Shown: positions 1 through 3,904 of the stretch, one piece after another
Layout: each line of letters begins with the position of its first letter
Position numbering within the stretch: position 1 is the first letter of the stretch
From: Pseudobdellovibrionaceae bacterium
GTDB lineage: Bacteria > Bdellovibrionota > Bdellovibrionia > Bdellovibrionales > UBA1609
Assembly (NCBI GenBank): GCA_025354795.1
Contig: JANXMF010000076.1
Coordinates: forward strand, 1-43,308
Length of the DNA stretch: 43,308 nucleotides
Direction: 5' to 3'
Position numbers and translations under genes: made by a program
The notes under the pieces: generated by a model
Told to the model about the DNA's origin: nothing
Databases searched by the model: none
The model's input: only the letters and a program-made list of their open reading frames with translations

Positions 1-1999
1 TCTTGCTGGCCATAAGATGGGTAACCAGAGCGTGAAGCAAGCGATCACGAGTCACTTTGCTTCCGCCCAATTCGTAAAGTAGCGCGACCTTTAGCGTGTC
101 CCGCGTACTCACCGGATGACCGGCCAAATTCCTTTCGAGCAAGGTCGCGGCCTCTGAAAATTCAGCCGAGGCTTCGAGCTCAGCTGCCAACTCGTCTTTC
201 TTGCCTAATTTTTTAAGAATCGCGATGAGCGTTTTTTGATCCCCCAGCTTAACCGCCAAAACCTTGGCGTTGGCGCAGGACTGCGGCAATAGCACATTGG
301 CTTCGCAATCTTCCGCAAACACCGTTAGCGCTTCAGGTTTGTTGCCCAACTGAGTGGCCGCTTCAAAGCGCGCCGAAGTTTCCACTTTGCGGATAGCCGC
401 TAGTTCTTCCCAGTGCTCTTGAGTGTCGCGCACCCAGCCCGCATAACGGGGGTCCGCGGTCCACAGATGCGCCTGCTTTTGCACCGCCGCGAAGTCCTTC
501 TTATTGGCCAATATATCCAGGGCTAAATGCTCACTCTGGATGGACCATTTGTCAGGCGCGCCGCTCTTAGGCAGTAGCGCAAGTTCAACGAAAATCGGCA
601 ACGCCTTGGCACTGTCTTCGTTTTGATAGTGAGCAAAGCCAATCTGGTAGAGTCCTTCGCGCGTTTGCGCGGACGTCTGCGTGAACGTTTGCAGGGCGGT
701 CATCTCCTCGATTACCACTTTTAGATCGCGGCTAGTCTGCGCCAGCGAGGCCCGGATCTTGCGCAAACGCACTTCTTCGGCTTGACGCTTGGCTTGAACG
801 TCTTCCGCAATCCAGATTTTGAGTTGATCGATTTTCTCGGCGCTCTCGGAAGTGGCGGCGATCCAACCATCAATCATCTGCCCGCGTTCATTGCGGGTCG
901 GATAAAGCGCGAGATAAAGCATCACGGCCTTTTTAAAGTGCGCGATACTCTTTGGACTGCTGACACGCTCGCCATCGAGCTGCACCGTCAAGCGGCGCAA
1001 GATTTTTTCACTGTCGAGATCGCCAGCGTCGCCCTTGTCATGAAGGTCCATGGCGCCGTCAATATCCGTGGCAAACTTATCCCAATCGCGAAAGCCGTAG
1101 TCCTCTTCCATTAATCGCACGTAAGACTTCAAGCTCGGAGATTTGCGATTCACCACATCAAGTATATAAACGCCGGCATGGCGATTGCCGTGGGAGAAAT
1201 AGGAGCCCGACAACTCCCCGATCAGCACCGGCCGCTTCAGTTTGCCGCTTAATTTTTCAATTTGATCAAGCGAATCCTTGCCGTCATCCGGCTGCCCGCC
1301 TAAAAATCCGATCAAGTCGCGAAGGGCTTCCTCACGAATCTGACCCTTTGAATCCCAAAGCGCTTGGTTCATTTCCTGAATCGCATCCTTGGCATGCTCT
1401 TGGCGCTGGAAAACCCAGGCGAGGCGATAGTGAATATAGGAACAAACATCTTGATTCGAGCAGAGAGTCAGCGCTCTTTTATAATATCCCTCGGCTTCCT
1501 TAAGCTCCCCGGCTCCGCCGCGATTTTCCAAAACCTCAGCAAGGCGTAACGCCGACTCACGCTGGACTTCCGGCATGCTGACCTCGCTCGCTAAGTCTTT
1601 CCAAATACTTTCGGCGGTTTGATTCTCGCCCAAGTCAGCATAAAGACGCGCGAGCTGAAATTGAATCTTGCCGCGGGCATTTCCACTCGGCTTGCGAAAT
1701 TGGCCTTTCAGCCCCGTGAGTGAATCTTGGTAGAGCTGTACCGCGCGTCGTCGCGCGGTCTTAGTTCGGGCTATGGTTTGCGCACTCGGCGTGGGCTCAC
1801 TGGAGAGAGTCAGGGCCTCGTTAATGAACGCGTCGGCAAGCTTTAATGTCAGTTGAGGACGGCTGGAGTCGCGGGTACCAACGCTGTTGAGCAAACCCTC
1901 CACATCGCGAATATAGGCGGCGTTGTTCGCGAGCGCGGCACGTGCTGGTGGTAGACAAAATAAGATATAAGCCAGTGGAATGAAAAAACGTTTTGTCAT
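1..1999 (-). CDS. Exported tetratricopeptide-repeat protein of the TolQ/TolR cluster (3' end outside window)
   Basis: This frame is not in the ORF track because its stop lies beyond base 1. I read an open frame of about 666 codons from an ATG at 1999. It begins with a Sec-type signal (MTKRFFIPLAYILF...PARA) and then shows helical repeat sequence with TPR-like spacing, for example AKDAIQEMNQAL preceded by YIHYRLAWVF. The middle is charged and rich in Lys, Glu and Ala. The start is translationally coupled: its ATG overlaps the TGA of the second TolR-like gene (ATGA). In Myxococcus gliding loci and in many delta-proteobacterial TolQ/TolR loci, periplasmic TPR proteins accompany the motor proteins. 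A scaffold or adaptor role in the periplasm is therefore inferred. No enzymatic motif is seen. Confidence 0.8.
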   Translation of the reverse strand, partial: MTKRFFIPLAYILFCLPPARAALANNAAYIRDVEGLLNSVGTRDSSRPQLTLKLADAFINEALTLSSEPTPSAQTIARTKTARRRAVQLYQDSLTGLKGQFRKPSGNARGKIQFQLARLYADLGENQTAESIWKDLASEVSMPEVQRESALRLAEVLENRGGAGELKEAEGYYKRALTLCSNQDVCSYIHYRLAWVFQRQEHAKDAIQEMNQALWDSKGQIREEALRDLIGFLGGQPDDGKDSLDQIEKLSGKLKRPVLIGELSGSYFSHGNRHAGVYILDVVNRKSPSLKSYVRLMEEDYGFRDWDKFATDIDGAMDLHDKGDAGDLDSEKILRRLTVQLDGERVSSPKSIAHFKKAVMLYLALYPTRNERGQMIDGWIAATSESAEKIDQLKIWIAEDVQAKRQAEEVRLRKIRASLAQTSRDLKVVIEEMTALQTFTQTSAQTREGLYQIGFAHYQNEDSAKALPIFVELALLPKSGAPDKWSIQSEHLALDILANKKDFAAVQKQAHLWTADPRYAGWVRDTQEHWEELAAIRKVETSARFEAATQLGNKPEALTVFAEDCEANVLLPQSCANAKVLAVKLGDQKTLIAILKKLGKKDELAAELEASAEFSEAATLLERNLAGHPVSTRDTLKVALLYELGGSKVTRDRLLHALVTHLMASK

Positions 2000-2523
2000 G
2001 AGCCGCCACGTGAAATCACGGCCAGTTGCACCGTGGAATAGGTTTGCGTTGGGAGCATTCCCATAAACTGGGACACCATCGTGCTGGGCAAATTACGATC
2101 AGCTTGAAGACTGATCACGCCGCTAAACTTTTGCTGCGGATGAGCGCGCTGCCACATTTCACGCAACTGTTCGAGCCGATTCATAAGCGGTGTCGGATCA
2201 AGGAGTAGCGCCTGAGTTTTCCCAACTAGTTTTTGATCCAGGTAAATTTCATCGGAAGAAATCGCCAACACCGGCGAGTCTTCGAGTTCACGCGCCGTGA
2301 CCGCCACCGGCAGAGTCACACCCTTAGTGGTCATCACCAGCTCAGGAGATGTTGAAAAGGTTTGCAGCAAGAAAATCACCAGCAGACTAAACATGTCCAC
2401 CATGGATGTTAAGGTCAGCCCGGCAATCATAATCCTTCGACGCGTGGCCTTGCGCTGCTTGCGCTTGAGCAGATGCTGATGAAAAGTTCCGACCGATAGG
2501 TTCTGCGCGCCAAGTTGTGCCAT
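1996..2523 (-). CDS. ExbD/TolR-like proton-channel partner, second copy
   Basis: A 175-residue biopolymer-transport protein of the ExbD/TolR/MotB-like class. It has a basic cytoplasmic N-terminus (KRKQRKATRRR) and one membrane helix, LTLTSMVDMFSLLVIFLLQT. Asp43 sits in the position of the essential channel aspartate of ExbD/TolR. A periplasmic domain of about 120 residues follows. The ATG directly abuts the stop of the preceding TolR-like gene, and its own stop overlaps the start of the TPR gene. It is clearly different in sequence from the first copy, so this is not a recent duplication. One TolQ with two unlike TolR proteins is the composition of AglR/AglQ/AglS in Myxococcus. Assignment to that system, rather than to Tol-Pal or TonB energisation, is an inference. 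Confidence 0.85.
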   Translation of the reverse strand: MAQLGAQNLSVGTFHQHLLKRKQRKATRRRIMIAGLTLTSMVDMFSLLVIFLLQTFSTSPELVMTTKGVTLPVAVTARELEDSPVLAISSDEIYLDQKLVGKTQALLLDPTPLMNRLEQLREMWQRAHPQQKFSGVISLQADRNLPSTMVSQFMGMLPTQTYSTVQLAVISRGGS

Positions 2524-3039
2524 TTAGGGCCTCACCGGGACCAGCCCAAGGCTGACTATCCCTAAATCACGTAAGGTGTCCATCACCGAAACAATTTCGC
2601 CATAACTGACGCCCGCTTGGGTTGTCACCCGAGCGGCCGAGATCGCCTGACCCAGTTTCGCCTTAAGATCAGTGACTGCGCTCACCGGCAAACTACTAGC
2701 GAAGGCAGTGACCACTGCGCGCAATTTGGTAAGCCTAAGCTCGTTGCTCTCGGCCTCGACTTTGAGCACTTGATCGCGCATTCCCGCGCGCTTTAGACTG
2801 AGTTCGAGGGCTTGCGGTTTAACGTACTTGATTTCCATTTCATAGGTATTTTGCGCGTCTTTGGGTGCGTCGATGCCCACCAATTGCTTGATGTTCACGC
2901 CGCCGATTTCCATCCATACGGCCGTCATCAACAAGAAGCAAATGCACATCGAAAGCAAATCGATAAACGGCACTAGATTGATTTCCGCATCCAGACTCCG
3001 CCGTCGTCCGGAGGAAGGGCTTGGACCCGCGCTTGCCAT
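2524..3039 (-). CDS. ExbD/TolR-like proton-channel partner, first copy
   Basis: A 171-residue ExbD/TolR family protein. A short Ser/Arg-rich cytoplasmic tail leads into DAEINLVPFIDLLSMCICF, which matches the family's N-x-x-P-F-I-D signature at the start of the single membrane helix. Asp27 is the likely proton-carrying residue. The remainder is a periplasmic domain ending VSLGLVPVRP. It lies 4 bp downstream of the TolQ-like gene and directly abuts the second TolR-like gene, so the three should be co-transcribed and assembled together in the inner membrane. Family membership is firm; the driven machine is unknown. Confidence 0.88.
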   Translation of the reverse strand: MASAGPSPSSGRRRSLDAEINLVPFIDLLSMCICFLLMTAVWMEIGGVNIKQLVGIDAPKDAQNTYEMEIKYVKPQALELSLKRAGMRDQVLKVEAESNELRLTKLRAVVTAFASSLPVSAVTDLKAKLGQAISAARVTTQAGVSYGEIVSVMDTLRDLGIVSLGLVPVRP

Positions 3040-3043
3040 ATGA

Positions 3044-3778
3044 CTACGCTTCCAGCATGGGCTCGGCCGCGATTTTGGCGCGGGCTGCCGATGTCTTCAT
3101 TCCACGCTTCAGCATGCTTTCGCCTTCCGAGAGGAAAACCAAGTCGTGATAAATCTCGGTAGTACTTTCGGTAATTTCGCCCACCAATCGATCGGTGCGA
3201 TTCTGAAAATATGCGAACGCCACCAACGCGGGAATGGCCGTGAGCAAGCCGAACGCGGTACAGTTCATGGCTTCCGAAATCCCTTTGCTTAGCATCATGG
3301 CGCGGTCGGCAGGATTGGCGCTGGCCACCGCGGCAAAGGAGTGAATCATCCCGACGATTGTTCCGAGCAGTCCAAGCAGTGTCGACACGTTACCGTACAT
3401 GGCCAAAAAGCCAGTGCGACGATCAATCCATGAAATCTCGTTGTTTAGCTTTTCGTCCATGCGCGCTTGGATCTCTTCATCGCCCGCCCCGCTGGCGCGC
3501 AGCCCACAACCAATCGCCGCAATCTTTCCCATGCTGGTGGCGTTGAACGATTTGGCGTAAGTTTCAGCGTTGCGGTACTCGCCACGCAGGATATTCGACA
3601 GTAAATATTTGCGGAAATCTCCAGGCGTCATTTTGACTTTGACGGCGAAGAAATAGGTGCGTTCCAAAATCAGGCCCAAAGTTAAAAGTGCAAAAGCCAA
3701 AATGAAGTACATAAATACTCCACCGCCCTCGAACGCGCTGATAATAAACATAGGCTTCACCGTACTCACTGGATCCAC
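3044..3778 (-). CDS. TolQ/ExbB/MotA-like proton-channel subunit
   Basis: An inner-membrane protein of the TolQ/ExbB family, 244 residues from the start chosen here. I take a GTG at 3778 because AAAGGGGGG lies just upstream. The ORF-track start at 3823 is a TTG with no visible ribosome-binding site. Helix 1 is FMYFILAFALLTLGLILER. The MotA/TolQ/ExbB core with helices 2 and 3 contains YGNVSTLLGLLGTIVGMIHSF and AFGLLTAIPALVAFAYF, both typical of the family. It heads an operon with two TolR-like genes and a TPR gene. The expected role is to form, with the TolR-type proteins, an ion-driven motor that transmits proton-motive force to the periplasm or outer membrane. Confidence 0.9.
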   Translation of the reverse strand: MDPVSTVKPMFIISAFEGGGVFMYFILAFALLTLGLILERTYFFAVKVKMTPGDFRKYLLSNILRGEYRNAETYAKSFNATSMGKIAAIGCGLRASGAGDEEIQARMDEKLNNEISWIDRRTGFLAMYGNVSTLLGLLGTIVGMIHSFAAVASANPADRAMMLSKGISEAMNCTAFGLLTAIPALVAFAYFQNRTDRLVGEITESTTEIYHDLVFLSEGESMLKRGMKTSAARAKIAAEPMLEA

Positions 3779-3904
3779 GATCCCCCCTTTATAAAAAAAC
3801 CGTCGACTGCTTGCAGATAGCAAACACGTTCATTGATGCTTTCGCAGATATTCAAACCCGTCAAACTTTTTTAATGGGGTTAGCTGTGGCTATGCAGTAC
3901 AGAA

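Follow-up and report, generated by a model that had tools for sequence, protein, structure and literature searches.

Results

One TolQ, two TolR and a TPR protein at the contig end

The four genes at one edge of the DNA analyzed here very probably open an operon, of which they make up the 5' half, for a surface motor of the AglRQS-Glt type that spans the envelope and is driven by protons, presumably with a role in gliding or prey engagement. The window (43,308 nt) is the whole contig C218 (JANXMF010000076.1) of an uncultured Pseudobdellovibrionaceae bacterium, represented by a 3.15-Mb bin of 243 contigs that is 94.12% complete and 3.91% contaminated (GCA_025354795.1). All four genes lie on the minus strand. 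The first encodes a TolQ/AglR-like predicted motor ring subunit of 244 amino acids with three hydrophobic segments (positions 3044–3778; PF01618, 3e-27). Its GTG start at 3778 aligns with an ATG start in the closest relative, at locus L036, and a Shine-Dalgarno-like motif read from the sequence (AAAGGGGGGA, positions 3781–3790, minus strand), presumably functional, lies a few bases 5' of it. Two TolR proteins with one TM helix each follow: TolR1, which has the position and type of AglQ (2524–3039; 171 amino acids; PF02472, 5e-15), and TolR2, which has those of AglS and a longer cytoplasmic N-terminus (1996–2523; 175 amino acids; PF02472, 1.4e-10). The last gene (2–1999), open at the contig end, encodes the first 666 amino acids of a GltD-like periplasmic TPR protein with weak TPR matches and a hydrophobic signal-like segment at its N-terminus. 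TolQ and TolR1 are 4 bp apart, TolR1 and TolR2 0 bp, and TolR2 and the TPR gene share an ATGA overlap; the original prediction of a gap-free operon of these four genes was thus correct in genes, coordinates and spacings. One MotA/TolQ/ExbB and two ExbD/TolR proteins in one operon is the composition of an Agl-Glt-type motor in the broad sense. Locus L036 is the closest relative found (TolQ 75% identical, motor proteins 57–77%). The order TolQ-TolR1-TolR2-TPR-GltF-GltG is unbroken in 15 of the 15 close loci with enough sequence, and the arrangement of the edge genes is therefore not a product of chance. Upstream on the same strand, apparently outside the operon, lies a gene for a SprT-like/DUF2786/DUF7168 protein (window:4023-5258).

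The operon appears to continue on two further contigs

That no TolA, TolB or Pal was in view, as the original prediction had stated, is true but is no evidence by itself, because position 1 of the window is the end of a contig. The continuation was found by searching the host bin with the genes of L036, a single contig on which nine of the ten operon genes are complete and the tenth begins. Contig C138 (3,114 bases) opens inside the TPR gene and encodes its C-terminal 267 amino acids (L116:3-806). The TPR protein is 52% identical to the 935-amino acid L036 homologue, on which the window ends at approximately residue 658 and C138 resumes at 669 (residues 669–932 match). After the TPR gene, C138 encodes an 87-amino acid GltF/CglF homologue, a 394-amino acid GltG and the beginning of a lipobox protein, its first two gene junctions being 4-base overlaps. 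Contig C164 opens in the rest of the lipobox protein and goes on with an outer-membrane barrel and GltC. No exact sequence overlap was found between the window end and C138, and the order C218-C138-C164 is based on homology to the relatives, not on overlapping reads. We infer that the operon runs across these three contigs in the order TolQ, TolR1, TolR2, GltD-like TPR, GltF/CglF, GltG, cadherin-like lipoprotein, outer-membrane barrel and GltC. Close relatives have the same gene order, and several of them close with a von Willebrand (MIDAS) lipoprotein. Looking beyond base 1, as had been proposed, thus uncovered Glt homologues (GltF/CglF, GltG, the OMP_myx_plus barrel and GltC) and not TolA, Pal or TonB.

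NCBIfam profiles were run on the host bin's own downstream genes. The barrel (OMP_myx_plus, TIGR04565; 1e-18, 67.6 bits, cut-off 60) and the AgmX/PglI C-terminal domain on GltG (NF033768; 4e-29, 100.6 bits, cut-off 40) passed, and GltF/CglF (CglF, 1e-9, 38.3 bits), GltG (9e-36, 123.6 bits) and GltC (5e-15, 55.3 bits) gave significant matches under the equivalog cut-offs. Because these cut-offs were far from reached, CglF, GltG and GltC are homologues and not curated equivalogs. GltG with its AgmX/PglI C-terminus, GltF/CglF, GltC and the OMP_myx_plus barrel are linked, as expected for an Agl-Glt system. The host GltG (394 amino acids) aligned only to profile positions 456–647 of 650 and lacks the N-terminal FHA domain of M. 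xanthus GltG. Neither the host nor its close relatives have a gene for the GltE TPR lipoprotein between GltD and GltF, and GltI and GltJ are not in the operon. The TPR protein fits GltD in position, size and signal-like N-terminus, and no curated GltD model matched it; its profile matches the proteins in the GltD position of other clusters, with scores that the TPR repeats inflate.

The lipoprotein encoded after GltG and before the barrel has a lipobox and predicted tandem Ig/cadherin-like domains (confident for approximately residues 44–370); cadherins and an RTX adhesin rank highest among its matches in the PDB. In several relatives, where contigs allow, the lipoprotein, barrel and GltC genes are followed by a co-directional gene for a von Willebrand MIDAS lipoprotein (in L037: NF052240, 1.8e-8; Pfam VWA, 6.8e-8). 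The profile of this MIDAS family found nothing among solved structures. In the host bin, the gene after GltC (L138:2639-3448, on C164) is convergent and encodes a 269-amino acid lipobox protein that is weakly von Willebrand-like and has a degenerate MIDAS-like motif (LDMSGT); none of the fetched loci contains a homologue of it. Profile comparison with the MIDAS family gave p 0.004 and probability 9, and the AlphaFold model (mean pLDDT 32.5) was too low in confidence for use. That this gene stands where several relatives have the MIDAS gene could reflect an adhesin swap or fast evolution.

The window TolQ separates from Tol-Pal and ExbB

The window TolQ scored 83 bits against TIGR02796 (TolQ; cut-off 221) and 58 bits against the ExbB equivalog (cut-off 206). 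The bin has a Tol-Pal set of its own on contig C12, with TolQ (233.8 bits, cut-off 221), TolR, a TolA-like protein and TolB. In the TolQ tree, which the original prediction had named as a test, a 99% branch split the window TolQ from the bin's Tol-Pal TolQ and ExbB-like proteins. Membership in Tol-Pal was rejected on the TolQ score, the separate set on C12 and the tree, and membership in ExbBD-TonB on the ExbB score and the tree. Phage records gave weak and uninformative tolQ/exbB-like matches. Just past the Tol-Pal genes on C12 lies a MotB-like gene (L124:7786-8529; MotB plug and OmpA), and the host may have a flagellar motor too.

The window type is sister to Bdellovibrio-type clusters and patchily distributed

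A tree of concatenated TolQ-TolR1-TolR2 (49 rows), in which Hyalangium and Anaeromyxobacter represented the Myxococcota and M. xanthus itself was absent, resolved four groups: the window type (100/100), a Bdellovibrio type (100/99), a canonical Glt type (100/100) and a Myxococcota AglRQS type (91/73). A closed genome of the model predator's genus (G037) has clusters at 2.44 and 0.41 Mb in the Bdellovibrio-type group and one at 0.80 Mb in the canonical Glt-type group. From number and position, we take the clusters of G037 to correspond to Bd2367-2377, Bd0411-0421, Bd0828-0838 and one near Bd1473-1483 of HD100. In this tree the Bdellovibrio-type group forms the sister lineage of the window type (100/99). 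Topologies uniting the window type with the Myxococcota AglRQS-type clade (p-AU 6.7e-5) or with the canonical Glt type (p-AU 2.3e-4) were rejected. The likeness of the 1+2 composition to Myxococcus AglR/AglQ/AglS rather than to Tol-Pal, as originally predicted, therefore holds for the Agl-Glt kind and not for orthology: the window operon is a predicted AglRQS-Glt-like machine, not an AglRQS orthologue. The tree also agrees with the choice of Bd0828-0838 as the cluster closest to AglRQS by Luciano et al. (PMC3169522). Published proteomics shows Bd0411-0421 rising once the prey has been entered and Bd2368-2377 rising on exit from it (PMC12546842).

We searched 369 genomes of the phylum with the TolR2 profile of the window type. 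Window-type TolR2 was found in 48 of them (161–281 bits). Within the host's order it occurred in 2/117 near-complete genomes (next best, 116 bits) and in one 54%-complete genome (G250), and no searched genome of the model predator's genus had it. As far as sequence can tell, the window type is a further lineage of such clusters, patchy in the phylum, a pattern that both loss and transfer fit. The host bin has two more one-TolQ-two-TolR sets, on C105 (L121:8075-11479) and C23 (L122:5259-7045), one of them with an adjoining 584-amino acid AgmX/PglI-tailed protein and TPR genes on the opposite strand, as well as a separate GltC-barrel-MIDAS group on C64 (L139:8926-12484). It also encodes MglA (C66): the PF00025 match was weak at first, and the identity was confirmed by PDB comparison to the solved gliding-motility protein MglA (E 1e-82). 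Sets of 2+2 composition, in which two adjacent TolQ-like genes precede TolR1 and, where visible, TolR2, were seen in mostly Myxococcota-assigned bins (L061, L066, L069, L072, L073, L078, L083, L086, L100, L104, L108, L112, L115).

The channel Asp of TolR2 is invariant and that of TolR1 is repeatedly lost

Asp27 of TolR1 and Asp43 of TolR2 each lie within the single hydrophobic segment of their protein, as predicted for channel residues. TolQ residues T140 and T174 align with T145 and T178 of E. coli TolQ, and no aligned relative has anything but Thr at either position (187 and 188 rows). The window motor thus has the channel Asp in both TolR proteins and the two channel Thr in TolQ, as expected for this class. 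The two TolR proteins are indeed unlike: their common stretch covers only 28 residues around the hydrophobic segment (39% identity, E 7e-5). The channel Asp of TolR2 is invariant among 14 close homologues and present in 141/141 non-redundant TolQ-TolR1-TolR2 sets. The TolR1 residue in these 141 sets is Asp in 114, Ser in 18 (L012, L017-L020, L022, L023, L025-L028, L030, L031, L155, L163, L164, L172, L173), Ala in 8 (L130, L157, L169-L171, L174-L176) and Asn in 1 (L158); one example reads FISLLSV in place of FIDLLSV. On the tree, the TolR1 Asp changed at least six times, and the window type always keeps both. Sets lacking the TolR1 Asp with the TolR2 Asp intact are predicted natural one-Asp motors. 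In L130 (8181-8726) and its relatives L157, L174, L175 and L176, the TolR1 Ala is accompanied by a Lys a few residues on, in the same predicted membrane helix (LLAVMVKLVPVLL).

Discussion

The operon is real and intact, and its genes are best explained by a lineage within the known Agl-Glt kind. In the machine that we propose, five TolQ would surround a TolR1-TolR2 dimer, and proton flow via the two Asp sites would cause rotation or a stroke of this dimer. GltG and the TPR proteins would pass the force across the peptidoglycan to an assembly of barrel, GltC and lipoprotein, which would shift a surface adhesin against the substrate or a prey cell, with slow gliding or adhesion-driven traction as the likely result. 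This surface-motor reading is based on the gene families and their order, the continuity over three contigs, the intact channel residues, the separation from Tol-Pal and ExbB, the Bdellovibrio-type clusters as closest outside lineage, together with their rise around prey entry and exit if they match those of HD100, and MglA in the bin. It also draws on M. xanthus, where AglRQS is a proton motor in which Asp28 of AglQ is essential (PMC3858216) and the adhesin CglB is a von Willebrand protein (PMC13104615). Against it count the missing M. xanthus components (GltE, the GltG FHA domain, GltI and GltJ), the CglF, GltG and GltC scores far under equivalog cut-offs, the contig joins by homology, and the host gene after GltC, which is convergent and weakly von Willebrand-like instead of a co-directional MIDAS gene.

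A further point against the surface motor is that in M. xanthus AglRQS also powers a non-motility task, spore-coat assembly via Nfs (PMC3858216). This precedent, together with the patchy distribution of window-type clusters, leaves some room for an Agl-Glt-like machine in non-gliding surface transport, such as the transport or wrapping of polysaccharide or the placement of adhesins on the cell surface. We consider this rather unlikely, since the cadherin/Ig-like lipoprotein in the operon and the MIDAS lipoprotein in relatives fit surface traction and no polysaccharide export gene was recognized among the operon genes examined. A divergent Tol-Pal or ExbBD-TonB system for envelope constriction or nutrient import has very little probability left. 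It could appeal to the TolQ/TolR family folds and to the TonB-like C-terminus of GltG (TIGR01352, 0.007 on the L036 homologue; GltG and GltJ resemble TonB, PMC9389320), but the bin's TolQ above the curated cut-off belongs to the set on C12, each window-type TolQ is paired with two TolR, and the tests named with the original prediction, the TolQ tree and the genes past base 1, both went against it. Equally improbable is a decaying or non-functional leftover of a gliding cluster: the rarity in the host's order (2/117) would fit, but no frame is interrupted, the two Asp and the two Thr are all in place, the start codon and the gene overlaps are preserved, and identity to the motor proteins of L036 is still 57–77%.

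In 2022 it was described as unknown whether AglQ and AglS pair with each other or each with itself (PMC9389320). We tentatively suggest, with more doubt than confidence, that the TolR pair is an obligate heterodimeric axle whose indispensable power site is the AglS-type one (TolR2 Asp43), the AglQ-type site (TolR1 Asp27) being optional. The window would then be the two-site form, from which sister lineages differ by having repeatedly become one-site (Asp to Ser, Ala or Asn), and if so, the Bdellovibrionota offer a ready series for testing a 5:2 motor on one protonatable Asp. Related sets without the TolR1 Asp are a direct test of the number of proton sites that such motors need. A literature search for AglQ, AglS and heterodimer found no paper, which does not prove that the loss of the TolR1 Asp is undescribed. 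According to a 2026 review, identifying the motor behind Bdellovibrio gliding, its adhesins and the path of the force is a major open challenge (PMC13104615). In the window type, a single compact operon, conserved between families, encodes the motor, the path across the envelope and candidate surface proteins. Deletion, tagging and purification would be simpler here than with the M. xanthus genes, which are scattered.

The system is familiar in outline, its window-type version so far unstudied. The clusters at 2.44 and 0.41 Mb of G037, presumably Bd2367-2377 and Bd0411-0421 of B. bacteriovorus, likewise run TolQ-TolR1-TolR2-GltD-GltF-GltG-lipoprotein-barrel, and GltC and a MIDAS gene then follow where the fetched stretch reaches, as in relatives of the window type; the window type, however, is a clade of its own (100/100) with at most approximately 46% TolQ identity to them. 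The Bd0828-0838 type (0.80 Mb of G037; L129) shares the motor, GltC, GltD, GltF, GltG and barrel families but has another gene order, GltE and an FHA domain on GltG, of which the window type has neither of the latter two. The Agl-Nfs spore-coat machine of M. xanthus has the same motor class and a Glt-paralogous trans-envelope part; it is sporulation-specific and uses the common AglRQS motor, whereas there is no evidence of sporulation for the host. With AglRQS and Glt of M. xanthus, the window type has in common one TolQ-like and two TolR-like proteins with the channel Asp, homologues of GltC, GltF, GltG and the barrel, a GltD-like protein, and MglA in the genome. It differs in that its operon lacks GltE, the FHA domain of GltG and GltI/J, and in that the motor and Glt genes form one operon instead of the three clusters of M. 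xanthus.
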